Translations under genes and position numbers: made by a program
Part shown: in pieces, positions 10,472 to 14,904 of the stretch
Numbering within the stretch: position 1 is the stretch's first letter
How the letters are laid out: each line of letters begins with the position of its first letter
Notes under the pieces: model-generated
What the model was told of the DNA's origin: nothing
Database searches by the model: none
The model's input: the letters and a program-made list of their open reading frames with translations, nothing else
DNA from: Asanoa sp. WMMD1127
Lineage (GTDB): Bacteria; Actinomycetota; Actinomycetes; Mycobacteriales; Micromonosporaceae
DNA: 64,000 nucleotides
NCBI RefSeq assembly: GCF_029626225.1
Contig: NZ_JARUBP010000001.1
Location: forward strand, 4,216,001 to 4,280,000
Direction of reading: 5' to 3'

Positions 10472-11152
10472 ATGCGGCTGCTCGTGGTGGAAGACGAGGA
10501 GGACCTGGCGACGGCGGTGCGGCTCGGCCTGACCCGGGCCGGCTACGCGGTCGACGTCGCCATGGATGCCGGTCAGGCCTATGACCGGCTCTCCTACACG
10601 GCGTACGACCTGATGCTGCTCGACGTCAACCTGCCCGACGCCGACGGCTTCGCGATGTGCCGCGCGATCCGCCGCGGCGAGGTGGCCGTCGAGGGCGGAA
10701 GCGACCTGCGGGTGCTGATGCTGACCGCGCGCGGCGCCCTGCGCGACCGGGTCCGCGGGCTCGACGAGGGCGCCGACGACTACCTGGTCAAGCCGTTCGC
10801 GCTGGCCGAGCTGCTGGCCCGGGTGCGGGCGCTGCTGCGGCGCGACACCGGCGGCCCGCACGCGGTGCTCACCGTCGGGCCGCTGACCCTCGACGCGGCC
10901 CGGCACGAGGCCAGTCGCGACGGCTCGCCGCTCGCCCTGACCAACAAGGAGTTCGGCGTCCTGGAATATCTGATGACCCGGCCGGGGCACGTCGTGCCGG
11001 CCGAGGAGCTGCTCGAGCACGTCTGGGACGAGAACGCCGACCCGTTCACCGAGACCGTCCGGGTCACCGTCGGCACGCTGCGGCGCAAGCTCGGCGGCGC
11101 GGCGATCGAGACGGTGGTCGGGCGCGGCTACCGGCTGCGGGAGGCGCCGTGA
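10472..11152 (+). CDS. OmpR-family response regulator
   Basis: This 226-residue protein has a receiver domain with the acidic pair in VVEDEEDL, phospho-acceptor D51 in LLDVNLPDADG, the Thr in LMLTARG and Lys in LVKPFAL. A winged-helix DNA-binding domain follows (about 128-222, ending VVGRGYRLREAP). It starts 9 bp after the protease gene and overlaps the sensor kinase gene by 4 bp, so the pair is cotranscribed with the MoxR/VWA/HtrA genes and may regulate that operon. Confidence 0.95.
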   Translation: MRLLVVEDEEDLATAVRLGLTRAGYAVDVAMDAGQAYDRLSYTAYDLMLLDVNLPDADGFAMCRAIRRGEVAVEGGSDLRVLMLTARGALRDRVRGLDEGADDYLVKPFALAELLARVRALLRRDTGGPHAVLTVGPLTLDAARHEASRDGSPLALTNKEFGVLEYLMTRPGHVVPAEELLEHVWDENADPFTETVRVTVGTLRRKLGGAAIETVVGRGYRLREAP

Positions 11153-12333
11153 GACGGCTGACGCAGTCGATCCGGTTCCGCCTGACGGTGCTCTATTCGG
11201 CGCTGCTGTTCGCCCTCGCCGCGACCGCGCTCGGCGTCACCTATCTCGCGGTCGAGCGGGCCACCGACCCCAAGCCGGTCACCCAGCAATATCGCGCGTC
11301 CGTCGTCAAGCACGGCGTCACCATCGACACGCTGGAGGTGGCCGAGGTCGACCAGATCGAGTCGGCGGTCAACTTCGGCACCCTGCAGACGCTGCGCACC
11401 TATTCGCTGTTCGCGCTCGGCGGCCTGCTGGTCGCCAGCCTCGGCATCGGCTGGGTGCTCTCCGGTCGCGCGTTGCGCCCCGTCGGGGCGATCGCCCGCA
11501 CCACGCGGGAGATCCAGGCGACCGACCTGTCGCGGCGGATCCGGCTCGGCGGCGCGAAGGACGAGCTGCGCGACCTGGCCGACACCATCGACTCCATGTT
11601 GGACAGACTCGACGACGCGTTCCGCAACCAGCGCGAGCTGATCGACGACGCCTCGCACGAGCTGCGCAGCCCGCTCGCGGTGATCCGGGCCAACCTCGAC
11701 GCCTCGCTGGTCGACGCGCCGGAGGCCACCGCGGACGAGCGGGCCCGGGCGGTGACCGTCATCGACCGGGCCGCGACGCGGATGTCGCGCCTCGTCGAGG
11801 ACCTGCTCGCCACCGCCCGCCGGGACGCGGGCGGACTGGCGGACACCGACGTCGACCTGGGCGCCGTGGCCCGCGAGGCGGGGGAGGAGTACGCCGCGGT
11901 GGCCGCCGCCAGCCAGGTGTTCCTGGCCTACGACGTGCGGCCGGGACTGACCTACATCGGCGACCACGACGCGCTGCGGCGGGCCGTCGGCAACCTGCTG
12001 TCCAACGCGGTCCGCCTCTCGCCCGAGGGCGGCACGGTCACCGTCGCGGCCGGCACCGCACCCGGCTGGCGGTGGATCGCCGTCGCCGACCACGGTCCCG
12101 GGATCGCGGCCGGCGACCAGGCGCGGGTCTTCGACCGGTTCTGGCGGGCGCCGGGCGCCGACGGCGGGCGGGACCGACGCACCGGCCTGGGCCTCGCCAT
12201 CGTCCGCCAGATCGTGGAGTCCCACGGCGGCCAGGTTGCCCTGCACTCGACGCCGGGGCGGGGCAGCACGTTCGTGCTGTGGCTGCCCCTGCCCACCGCC
12301 GAAGGCCCGCCACCGGCGGAGCCGCCCGTTTAG
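11149..12333 (+). CDS. two-component sensor histidine kinase
   Basis: This 394-residue kinase has TM1 (about 10-30), a short extracytoplasmic loop of about 55 residues, TM2 (about 85-107), a HAMP domain (about 108-160), H-box H170 in DDASHELRSPLAVI, N-box GNLLSNAVRLSP, G1 DHGPGIA, F-box FDRFW and G2 GLGLAIV. The GTG at 11149 overlaps the regulator stop. The short sensor loop suggests sensing of membrane state or of a small partner rather than a large ligand. The stop codon TAG at 12331-12333 is partly built from the flanking TA of a small transposable element. Confidence 0.95.
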   Translation: MRRLTQSIRFRLTVLYSALLFALAATALGVTYLAVERATDPKPVTQQYRASVVKHGVTIDTLEVAEVDQIESAVNFGTLQTLRTYSLFALGGLLVASLGIGWVLSGRALRPVGAIARTTREIQATDLSRRIRLGGAKDELRDLADTIDSMLDRLDDAFRNQRELIDDASHELRSPLAVIRANLDASLVDAPEATADERARAVTVIDRAATRMSRLVEDLLATARRDAGGLADTDVDLGAVAREAGEEYAAVAAASQVFLAYDVRPGLTYIGDHDALRRAVGNLLSNAVRLSPEGGTVTVAAGTAPGWRWIAVADHGPGIAAGDQARVFDRFWRAPGADGGRDRRTGLGLAIVRQIVESHGGQVALHSTPGRGSTFVLWLPLPTAEGPPPAEPPV

Positions 12334-12496
12334 GGTCTGTCCGGCCGATCAACGCGGCCTGCGACGGGCCCAGCTGCCGCCTGGCGGCGTCCCGGAATCA
12401 CCCGGATACGACACCGGTATCCGGGCAATTCCGGGCCACCACCAGACGACACCTGGCCTCCGTCTCGGCTCACGTTGATCGGCAGGACAGACCCTA
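12331..12496. repeat. MITE-like element with 24-bp terminal inverted repeats, inserted at convergent stop codons
   Basis: The 166-bp element, including TA at both ends, has arms 12331-12354 and 12473-12496 that match at 23 of 24 positions. The outer part is TAGGGTCTGTCC and the inner part CCGATCAACG. It has no ORF of its own. Removing it with one TA restores kinase codons ending GTT TAG on one strand and LacI codons ending AGC TAA on the other, so the original genes had overlapping stops. The element restores TAG for both genes because it begins with G at each end. It is probably mobilised in trans by a TA-targeting transposase. IS5 and IS630 types are both possible. Confidence 0.8.
12391..12435. 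terminator. nested hairpin inside the MITE, probable bidirectional terminator
   Basis: An outer stem pairs CCCGGAAT (12391-12398) with ATTCCGGG (12428-12435). An inner 9-bp stem pairs CCCGGATAC (12401-12409) with GTATCCGGG (12417-12425) around a 7-nt loop. It is perfectly symmetrical between the convergent kinase and LacI genes, so it could stop transcription from both sides. There is no T-tract, which is common in high-G+C actinomycetes. Confidence 0.6.
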
Positions 12497-13534
12497 GCTC
12501 GAGTCCCGGACCACCAGGGTCGGGTTGAAGATGACCGTGCGCGGTGAGCGGCCCGGCTCGCGCAGGCCGGCCAGCAGCAGGCGGGCCATCTCGCCGGCCA
12601 TCTCCTCGACCGGCTGGTGGATCGTGGTCAGCTGGGGATGCGCCTCCAGTGCCGCGCTGCTGTCGTCGAAGCCCACCACCGACACGTCGCCGGGCACCTC
12701 GCGGCCCAGCTCCTGGAGCGCGCGCACCGCGCCCTCGGCCATCAGGTCGTTGGCGACGAAGAGGCCGTCGAGGTCGGGGTGCGTGTCGAGCAGCGCCCGG
12801 GCCGCCGCCTCACCGCTGGCCCGGGTGAAGTCGCCCTCGACCACCGGCGGCGCCGGCAGTCCTTGGCGGGCCAGCGCGTCCCGGAAGGCGGAGAGCCGGT
12901 CCTGCCCGGCCGGCATGTCCTGCGGGCCGGCGATCGTGCCGAGCCGGCGCCGGCCCCGCGACACGAGATGCTCGGCGGCGAGCCGGACGCCGGCCGGCTG
13001 GTCGACGTCGACGTAGCTGAGCGGCACCGGCCGGCCCGGCCGGGCGGAGAGCACCGTGGCGACGCCCATCTCGGCCAGCTGGCCGGGGAACGGGTCGGCC
13101 GCGTGGCTCGAGATCAGCAGCACGCCGTCGACGTGCCCCTGGCGCAGGTAGCGCAGCACCTGCTCGTGGGCGGGGGGATCGGCCGGGATGATCACGAGGT
13201 GGATGCCCTCGGGCCGGAGCACCTCCTGGGCGCCGGCGGTCAGCCGCCCGAAGTAGGGGTCGGTGAAGACCCGGTTGAGGAACGTGGCCGCGTACTCACG
13301 GTGGTTGGGTGGCTCGCTGATCACCAGCGCGACCGAGTCGGTGCGGCGGGTGACGAGCGACCGGGCCGCGAGGTTGGGCACGTAGCCCGTCTCCTGGATG
13401 GCCCGCTCGACGGCCGCCCGCATCCGCGGGTCGACGGTCGGCACGTCGTTGATCACCCGCGAGACGGTGGCCCGGGAGACGCCCGCGGCGACGGCGACCT
13501 CGTCCAGCGTCGGCGGGCGCGGCGGGGTGCTCAC
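12494..13534 (-). CDS. LacI-family transcriptional regulator
   Basis: This 346-residue repressor has an N-terminal LacI helix-turn-helix (about 8-30, LDEVAVAAGVSRATVSRVIN), the hinge YVPNLAARSL and a periplasmic-binding-like sugar domain (GVLLISSH..., VAAEHLVSRG, LFVANDLMAEG, SVVGFDDS). The GTG at 13534 is chosen because it gives the normal short N-terminus before the HTH. It lies downstream of and parallel to the beta-glucan hydrolase genes. It may control them or the distant xylanase. Its own promoter contains CCGGAA/TTCCGG inverted repeats that look autoregulatory. The stop codon is formed with the TA of the adjacent MITE. Confidence 0.93.
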   Translation of the reverse strand: MSTPPRPPTLDEVAVAAGVSRATVSRVINDVPTVDPRMRAAVERAIQETGYVPNLAARSLVTRRTDSVALVISEPPNHREYAATFLNRVFTDPYFGRLTAGAQEVLRPEGIHLVIIPADPPAHEQVLRYLRQGHVDGVLLISSHAADPFPGQLAEMGVATVLSARPGRPVPLSYVDVDQPAGVRLAAEHLVSRGRRRLGTIAGPQDMPAGQDRLSAFRDALARQGLPAPPVVEGDFTRASGEAAARALLDTHPDLDGLFVANDLMAEGAVRALQELGREVPGDVSVVGFDDSSAALEAHPQLTTIHQPVEEMAGEMARLLLAGLREPGRSPRTVIFNPTLVVRDSS

Positions 13535-13550
13535 GCGACCAGTTATAGCA

Positions 13551-13574
13551 CCGGAAGAGCTTCCGGAAGTTCCG
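13551..13574. promoter_or_regulatory. CTTCCGGAAG-type inverted repeat, probable operator of the LacI gene
   Basis: Just upstream of the LacI start lie overlapping dyads: CCGGAAG-AG-CTTCCGG (13551-13566), the perfect CTTCCGGAAG (13560-13569) and CGGAAGTTCCG (13564-13574). Position and symmetry fit an autoregulatory LacI site. A similar TTTCGGAAACTTCCGG block lies in front of the GH10 xylanase near 47987-48001. Confidence 0.5.
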
Positions 13575-13583
13575 CCGGACGGG

Positions 13584-13617
13584 CCCGCCGGCCCTCCCGT
13601 CAAGGAGGACCGGCGGG
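13584..13617 (-). terminator. hairpin terminator after the GH16/DUF1996 operon
   Basis: Two 14-nt arms (13584-13597 and 13604-13617) pair with one mismatch around the loop CGTCAA. The arms are almost entirely G/C. The hairpin lies 16 bp past the DUF1996 stop on the minus strand and upstream of the LacI promoter, so it separates the two units. It has no clear T-tract. Confidence 0.65.
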
Positions 13618-13632
13618 TGTGGTGGGTCCGCG

Positions 13633-14904
13633 TCACGGCGTGCCGTTGACGCCGCACTTGATGATCGGCCGGATGCAGTCGCGCACCCGGCGCTCCATCT
13701 CGGCCACGGGCCAGGCGTTGAAGAAGTCGCCGTGCATGGTGAAGCCGCGGCCCGACGCGAGCCGGATCCGGGCCGGGTCACCGTTGACGGGGTAGCGCAG
13801 CACCTGCCGCAGCTTCGGCACCGGCACCGGGTGGGTGCTCGGGCAGTCGCCGTTGACCGGGTACGCCATGTGGCTCTTGTGGTTCGGCGAGTCCAGGTCG
13901 TGGCCGTTCCAGCACTGCGGGAAGTCCAGATAGGACTCCAGCATGCTGCCGGCCGGGCAGTTGACGAAGTCCTTGCCGGCGCCGACCTCGTTGTGGTGCA
14001 GGCACGACCACCGGGAGATGGTGGTCGCGTCCGGCGCGGTCGCCTGGGCGTTGCCGGCCACGATCCGCAGCCCCAGCGGGAGCGACTGGATCCGGGCGGT
14101 CACGTCGGGGCGCACGCCCTCACCGAGGTAGTAGAAGATGCCGGTGACCGGCTCGACCGGCTGGTTGTCCCGGTAGAGCGTGGGCACCCAGTAGGACGAG
14201 AGGTCGATGCTCGGGTTGCAGTTGCTCGTGCCCGCCTGCAGGTCGCCCAGGTTGGTGTAGGCGTTGACGTTGCGGGCGCCGAAGAAGCTGTGCATGTGCG
14301 AGGCGCCCGGCAGGCCCGGGTAGATGATCGGGTCGTCGGGGAGCCGGTGCGAGAACGGGCAGTCGGCCAGGAACTCCGAGACCCGCACGATCGGCCCGGT
14401 CGGCGGCGGGGGTGGCGGTGGCGCGGCGCCGCCGACACCGTAGACCTGGAACTCCCAGAGCGAGACGCCCCACTGGGTGGCCCGCCGGGTGCTGTGCAGC
14501 CGCACGTAGCGGCCGGTGCCCGAGACCGCGAGGTCCTGGTTGCCACCGGTCGCGGTCGTGGTGCTGTAGACGGTCGTCCAGCTCGTGCCGTTGGCCGACG
14601 TCTGGATGGTGTACGCGCTGGAGTAGGCGCCTTCCCAGCGGATCACCACCCGGCTGATGGTGGCGCTGGCGCCCAGGTCGACCTGCAGCCACTGCGGGTC
14701 GCTGAACGCGCTGGACCAGCGGGTGCCGTTGTTGCCGTCGACCGCGTTGCTGGCGGGCGAGCCGCCGTTCTCGGTCGATGACGCGCTGGCCGCGCGGCCC
14801 TGTGAGATGAGTGGGTCGGCCGCGACGGCGTCACCCGTGGCGGCGACCAGGTAGCCGCTGAGCAACAGGACGAGCACGGCGGCGAAGCTTGCTGTTCGTC
14901 GCAT
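13633..14904 (-). CDS. secreted F5/8C (discoidin-like) and DUF1996 domain protein
   Basis: This 423-residue protein has a signal peptide (1-28, MRRTASFAAVLVLLLSGYL), an F5/8 type C carbohydrate-binding domain (about 32-155, ending RYVRLHSTRRATQWGVSLWEFQVYG), a run of eight prolines, and a DUF1996 domain (about 172-410). The DUF1996 part has HMHSFFGA, SSYWVPTLY, WSCLHHNE, DFPQCWNGHDLD and KSHMAYP, with many conserved His, Cys and Trp. DUF1996 has no established activity that I know of. The gene starts 9 bp after the GH16 stop with AGGAG upstream, so it is cotranscribed. The binding module shared with the GH16 enzyme suggests both act on the same polysaccharide outside the cell. Confidence 0.88.
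   Translation of the reverse strand: MRRTASFAAVLVLLLSGYLVAATGDAVAADPLISQGRAASASSTENGGSPASNAVDGNNGTRWSSAFSDPQWLQVDLGASATISRVVIRWEGAYSSAYTIQTSANGTSWTTVYSTTTATGGNQDLAVSGTGRYVRLHSTRRATQWGVSLWEFQVYGVGGAAPPPPPPPTGPIVRVSEFLADCPFSHRLPDDPIIYPGLPGASHMHSFFGARNVNAYTNLGDLQAGTSNCNPSIDLSSYWVPTLYRDNQPVEPVTGIFYYLGEGVRPDVTARIQSLPLGLRIVAGNAQATAPDATTISRWSCLHHNEVGAGKDFVNCPAGSMLESYLDFPQCWNGHDLDSPNHKSHMAYPVNGDCPSTHPVPVPKLRQVLRYPVNGDPARIRLASGRGFTMHGDFFNAWPVAEMERRVRDCIRPIIKCGVNGTP

Follow-up and report, generated by a model that had tools for sequence, protein, structure and literature searches.

Background

Several systems described in the accessible portions of the literature come close to the element reported here. 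Members of the IS427 group of the IS5 family are shorter than 1 kb, some with two overlapping frames, and mostly make 2-bp (TA) target duplications, one being listed with 4 (PMC3281130). IS5 itself makes duplications of PyTAPu, in most cases CTAG; this tetranucleotide is under-represented in bacteria (PMC5493358). The GTAG REPs are palindromes of 20-40 bp associated with RAYT transposases; most of them stand between genes in convergent or codirectional arrangement, and their termini often give the flanking ORFs a TAG stop (PMC3733652). Bacterial IS-derived MITEs are short, non-coding elements with inverted ends and often TA termini, which are moved in trans and form stable hairpins, and RUP is an IS630-type MITE with TA targets (PMC10969869, PMC2229807). 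QMITE2 (PMC5896051) and RU-1 (PMC2759123) are fused to the 3' ends of genes, where insertion extends or alters the protein.

The element studied here is a MITE of Asanoa sp. WMMD1127, found in a 64,000-nucleotide stretch of DNA called the window in the following. Like QMITE2 and RU-1, as far as the available parts describe them, it lies at the end of a coding sequence, but here the ending is unchanged. From the GTAG REPs, as described in the parts available, it differs by its length (166 bp against 20-40 bp), its TA target, its IS5-type ends and its double-stop sites, at which two convergent stops lie. Compared with the IS427 group in the accessible description, the MITE, which has no transposase, has only the ends in common; its likely IS partner, with TA duplication, two frames and a length below 1 kb, may belong there by resemblance. 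In the accessible portion of the review of IS-derived MITEs (PMC10969869), "stop codon" and "convergent" gave no matches, whereas most copies here lie on stops. The first-pass annotation had considered the combination of TA and a G-starting repeat as a stop-preserving design not to be described. Going by the accessible text on GTAG REPs (PMC3733652), palindrome ends that supply TAG are known already, and what is new is narrowed to the double-stop sites and a mechanism of the IS5 type. In the portions of the open-licence literature available, neither landing on double stops nor CTAG targeting as the reason for it is described. The points still new are the excess of the MITE at double stops, which target choice does not explain, and its conserved tip.

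A MITE on two convergent stop codons

The element is a non-coding palindrome of 166 bp which forms one long hairpin and has no transposase gene of its own. It stands between a sensor histidine kinase gene and a LacI-family gene of the opposite strand, whose start codon is uncertain (13657 or 13534). The features of the site are the following:

11149-12333, plus strand: sensor histidine kinase, HisKA and HATPase_c (Pfam), stop TAG at 12331-12333
12331-12496, no strand: MITE including its edge TAs, one TA being the duplicated target; delimited from sequence, copies and empty sites
12331-12354, plus strand: left terminal inverted repeat TAGGGTCTGTCCGGCCGATCAACG, first three bases forming the kinase stop
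12370-12456, no strand: inner nested hairpin, arms of 40 nt, 80% complementary, 7 nt between them
12405-12421, plus strand: hairpin tip GATACGACACCGGTATC, containing the 15-mer ATACRACACCGGTAT
12473-12496, minus strand: right terminal inverted repeat TAGGGTCTGTCCTGCCGATCAACG (minus-strand reading), first three bases forming the LacI stop
12494-13657, minus strand: LacI-family regulator, LacI and Peripla_BP_3 (Pfam), stop TAG at 12496-12494

Direct reading of the sequence confirmed the architecture given in the first-pass annotation, with 24-nt inverted ends identical at 23/24 positions, TA at the left and at the right edge, and a nested hairpin; its MITE-like nature was borne out by the dispersed copies, the empty sites and the TA duplication described below. 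The outer arms reach 37 nt at 84%. The strand folds at -114.7 kcal/mol, compared with -65.1 ± 4.3 kcal/mol for shuffled sequences (z -11.6; 0/200 shuffles). There was no Rfam match at the gathering score between positions 12200 and 12650 of the window, and a comparison with plasmids gave no match at E 1e-3.

The kinase and LacI stops are both TAG, composed of the edge TA and the MITE's own first G on the respective strand. Removal in silico of the MITE with one TA gave GTTTAGCTC, in which the kinase ends in TAG and the LacI gene in TAA, the two overlapping on the TA, just as the sequence had been read in the first-pass annotation. Its statement that TA plus a G-starting end rebuilds both stops is also supported at this site.

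Dispersed copies and empty sites

The window genome (G000, 8.0 Mb) contains eight full copies of the MITE, including that of the window, at 95-100% identity, together with a related MITE subfamily that has the outer bases and the tip in common. Among species-representative genomes, the exact end sequence was present in six stretches, all of them in Asanoa records. From the Asanoa loci, 62 copies with recognisable ends were parsed, 40 of which have TA at both edges; the 22 without TA on one or both edges were left out of the stop counts. Short and long forms are included in both the 62 and the 40 (in the latter L011, L122, L136, L142, L144 and L171). A second set, found via the hairpin tip, comprises 90 loci from two genera, g13 and g29 (mostly the latter), in 30 genomes; of these loci 75 were parsed and 51 have both TAs; 64 of the 75 parsed copies measure 165-167 bp.

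Three of five Asanoa relatives (G002, G004 and G005) lack the element at the window site and have a CTAG there on which both stops overlap. In G003 the orthologous site holds, between the kinase and LacI genes, a gene which by eye resembles a GNAT acetyltransferase, and not the element; in G001 no kinase end is found beside the LacI gene. Eleven insertion sites, the window and ten others, were checked in relatives, and contiguous orthologues were found at eight of them, all element-free. YTAR stands at the insertion point in at least one relative at five of these eight (window, L003, L006, L007 and L013), and the orthologues of L017, L153 and L168 have different gene ends. At four sites (window, L003, L007 and L013) CTAG is missing from the reconstructed target but present in at least one relative; this would fit insertion into CTAG followed by drift of the bases outside the partner stop. 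The sequence comparison supports the view that two convergent stops already overlapped at the site before the window MITE was inserted. Further copies with the same ends occur in the genome and in relatives, empty sites occur with a single TA, and a preference for stops exists (see below), these being the three points on which the first-pass annotation had made its reading depend.

A likely IS5-family partner and its CTAG target

We found also that G000 has IS5-family elements of 926-931 bp. One of them (L227, 928 bp) ends with TAGGGCGTGTCCTGCCGATCAT on both sides, which agrees with the MITE at 20/21 positions. Its transposase matches NF033580 (NCBIfam) with 161.2 bits against a cut-off of 110, its frames correspond to DUF4096 (PF13340) and DDE_Tnp_1 (PF01609), and the transposase of a second element (L230) also exceeds the NF033580 cut-off. 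On these sequence grounds, an IS5-family element of the same genome is likely to be the partner of the MITE. The interior of the MITE has no 10-mer in common with L227, and it is therefore not a simple internal deletion of that element.

The background for stop codons was taken from 184 CTAG sites in 864 kb of G000 and G118. For this background, as for the element copies, genes were called by a home-made codon-usage scorer trained on the window. After removal of 33 coding sites, 6 sites at the ends of a stretch and 3 stops that lie within another gene, 142 non-coding sites were left, of which 58 lie on any stop and 13 on a double stop. Convergent gene pairs with an overlap of exactly four bases numbered 12/79 and 7/70 in the same 864 kb of the two genomes.

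The IS set comprised 58 loci and, less 11 without ends and one duplicate, 46 distinct copies. All 46 have a YTAR target, which is CTAG in 42, and all start with TAG at the left edge, one copy having TAA at the right edge. Sixteen lie on one stop and three on two, that is 19/46 on any stop, a share which may be undercounted as some IS flanks had no called gene. Compared with the CTAG background, these shares gave p = 1.0 for any stop and p = 0.80 for double stops, so the landing of the autonomous elements on stops follows from CTAG targeting. The reconstructed targets of the MITE read YTAR in 33/40 Asanoa copies and 42/51 copies of the other genera, the remainder (7/40 and 9/51) being other than YTAR. 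Stop-preserving landing is explained by CTAG targeting together with a G-starting end, which the MITE has in common with its IS partner. The suggestion of a stop-preserving design special to this MITE did not hold, since IS5-family and IS630-family elements have the CTAG target and the TAG ends as well.

Excess of the MITE at double stops

The distribution of the MITE departs from that of the IS copies. Among the 40 Asanoa copies with both TAs, 18 lie on double convergent stops, 16 on a single stop and 6 on none; for the 51 copies of g13 and g29 the corresponding numbers are 17, 25 and 9, two of these nine (L271 and L280) being doubtful because the parser placed their edges some bases inside. 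Pooled over Asanoa and the two other Micromonosporaceae genera, 76/91 MITEs with intact TA edges lie on a stop and 35/91 on a double stop, which bears out the preference for stop codons anticipated from the window site; the requirement for intact TAs may itself favour stop sites. With decayed edges allowed, and ten differently-ended elements of genome G017 omitted, 35 copies are on double stops, 56 on single stops and 36 on none (any stop 91/127). Restriction to full-length copies (160-173 bp, n = 81) gave 31, 37 and 13, respectively (any stop 68/81).

The MITE counts exceed the CTAG background, itself drawn from two genomes, with p = 7e-17 for any stop and p = 5e-14 for double stops. They also exceed those of the IS copies: 76/91 MITEs vs 19/46 IS copies lie on any stop (p = 1e-6), and 35/91 vs 3/46 on a double stop (p = 4e-5), the two sets coming mostly from different genomes. 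Within G000 alone, 16/16 MITEs lie on a stop vs 3/8 IS copies (p = 0.001), and 8/16 vs 0/8 lie on double stops (p = 0.02). Inflation of the counts by ancestral shared insertions was considered and rejected: a single flank-sharing pair occurs among the 62 Asanoa copies (L008 and L094) and none among the 91, L008 lying outside the latter by its decayed edge, and no insertion site is common to any two of the 91 MITEs.

The double-stop excess is not explained by target choice. It was then compared with divergence, for the 116 of the 127 copies that could be binned by identity to the nearest copy, and double stops made up 16/50 at 0.95 or above, 11/45 at 0.88-0.95 and 4/21 below. More diverged copies thus show no larger excess, which speaks against slow retention as its source. 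This leaves two possibilities, that harmful insertions are purged rapidly or that the MITE itself is biased in where it inserts.

Hairpin and conserved tip

The 15-mer of the tip was present in 103/250 Micromonosporaceae genomes, belonging to 18/44 sampled genera, with no reversed-control match among the matches listed; copies were parsed as elements in three of these genera. When 40 of the 50 full-length Asanoa copies were aligned, the tip columns 79-93 were 98% conserved, compared with a median of 78% for 15-column windows, and changes on both sides kept the pairing of the arms at 33/52 predicted pairs. Any IS-type element should have matching ends, and hence two-sided changes. None of the 53 IS loci searched contained the tip core.

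A broader operator-like function was rejected for the tip, GATAC-N7-GTATC occurring only twice in 864 kb, in the window element and in L188, where it also lies inside a family-type hairpin. Short forms of 88-99 bp lack the tip (L011 1501-1595, L045 2259-2352, L098 1500-1587, L142 1459-1557, L144 1501-1594 and L171 1485-1572). Three of them, L011 (95 bp), L142 (99 bp) and L144 (94 bp), sit on double stops, an argument against the tip being responsible for such landing. In genome G017, elements with the same tip (L282-L294) have other ends, TAGAGGTCCTGAC..., and apparently TTAA-type flanks; it seems that the tip occurs with more than one end type. Nine of the ten parsed G017 elements lie off stops, which is only suggestive as their boundaries are uncertain.

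The first-pass annotation had proposed that the insertion adds a bidirectional terminator. No U-tract terminator was found between positions 12100 and 12750 of the window, and downstream of the hairpin at most 2 of 12 bases are T at 164/220 ends of 110 copies. Hairpin energies of double-stop and off-stop copies did not differ (p = 0.22, 31 vs 31). The missing U-tract and the lack of a link between energy and site class speak against this role.

Proposed mechanism and alternative explanations

We propose, with a probability of about 0.86, that the element is a non-autonomous MITE moved in trans by IS5-family transposases and inserted in a stop-preserving manner at YTAR/CTAG. The shared ends and targets suggest that transposases of the NF033580 type, with DUF4096 and DDE_Tnp_1 frames, would act on the MITE, inserting it at the TA of CTAG (consensus YTAR) and duplicating the TA. 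CTAG is scarce inside the genes of this GC-rich DNA, and roughly two-fifths of the non-coding CTAG sites are TAG stops. Where convergent genes overlap by four bases through their TAG or TAA stops, the overlap reads YTAR, and the G placed behind TA on each strand leaves each gene with a TAG stop. At such a double-stop site both proteins are unchanged and the MITE now provides both stops. As both stops are restored, the MITE can spread at gene ends with neither protein altered, and the insertion is presumably harmless to selection. For GC-rich genomes this gives a testable rule, that a CTAG-targeting transposase with G-starting ends often lands on stops and rebuilds them; the 46 IS copies fit it numerically, and no dedicated targeting protein would be needed for gene ends to serve as safe sites. 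The size of the MITE excess makes insertion bias and selection measurable against each other, and the occurrence of the 15-base tip in 18/44 sampled genera points to a constraint beyond the needs of a MITE for its ends.

That the element is a stationary repeat or a structured RNA gene is scarcely credible. Its near-constant length in the non-Asanoa copies and its conserved tip would suit such a repeat, but this is contradicted by empty orthologous sites with a single TA, by dispersed near-identical copies, by the ends in common with an IS and by the lack of an Rfam match across the window site. The excess at double stops is harder to account for. Survival alone, with insertions at other CTAG sites soon lost as the strong hairpin harms operons or leaders more than gene ends and with double stops not special in themselves, comes somewhat short of even odds. 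Off-stop copies are indeed few (15/91) and all 15 lie in codirectional or divergent arrangements; however, leader-free convergent sites are still skewed, with 35 MITEs on double stops, 15 on single stops and 0 on none, compared with 19, 36 and 26 of the background YTAR sites.

Targeting specific to the MITE, in which the hairpin or its tip would perhaps steer it into convergent gene ends from the start, appears rather unlikely to us. The excess already present in the least diverged copies, the IS copies following the CTAG background, and the conservation of a tip that a transposase should not need beside the ends are all consistent with it, but one and the same transposase should act on IS and MITE, rapid purging of harmful insertions gives the same pattern, copies without the tip also occupy double stops, and the IS sample numbers only 46. 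A Micromonosporaceae gene-end cassette is unlikely too; here the G-starting ends and the conserved hairpin would let the element enter or stay at overlapping convergent stops beyond target choice, becoming a shared stop and perhaps a transcript end. A domesticated cassette, whose hairpin would end or insulate transcription from both sides, selection favouring convergent overlaps, we hold to be improbable. It would agree with the surplus of double-stop MITEs, which stands out against the CTAG background as well as the IS copies, and with the arms kept paired through two-sided changes. These changes also follow, however, from the matching ends of any IS-type element, the window site has no U-tract terminator, hairpin energy is alike at double stops and off stops, and the G017 elements, which share the tip and also form a strong hairpin, mostly lie away from stops, their boundaries being less certain.

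Other elements of the window and related genomes

The IS630 family reportedly inserts at the TA in CTAG, as Tenzen and Ohtsubo, cited in PMC2170065, are said to have described in 1991. Four near-identical IS630-family elements of 1137 bp (L223-L226, PF13358) stand at CTAG with TAG ends (4/4), three of the four on one stop, and they represent an independent case of stop rebuilding. The CTAG target, the TA duplication and the TAG-starting ends of this family are like those described above, but its transposase (PF13358) and its ends differ; it was rejected as the partner of the MITE, as the IS630 ends TAGTGTCCTGAGTCG differ from the MITE ends TAGGGTCTGTCCTGCC.

The window itself begins within another IS5-family element, the extent of which was deduced from the coordinates of L241:

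1-394, no strand: last part of an IS5-family copy of 926 bp (L241) that is truncated at the window edge, ending ...GACGCGCCCTA then G

L241 belongs to a second IS5 subgroup with the ends TAGGTCGCGTCTCTCGGATCA and TAGGGCGCGTCTCTCGGATCA, of which four copies were seen in G000.

Two copies of different subfamilies, L008 in G000 and L094 in G005, have both flanks in common near the start of the same gene, and go back either to one ancient insertion in common or to repeated use of the site. In G004, an element of the family lies apparently beside the 3' end of a LacI paralogue (L085/L151, G004:C2:2642976-2643091), where the DNA match runs out of the paralogue into part of the element.
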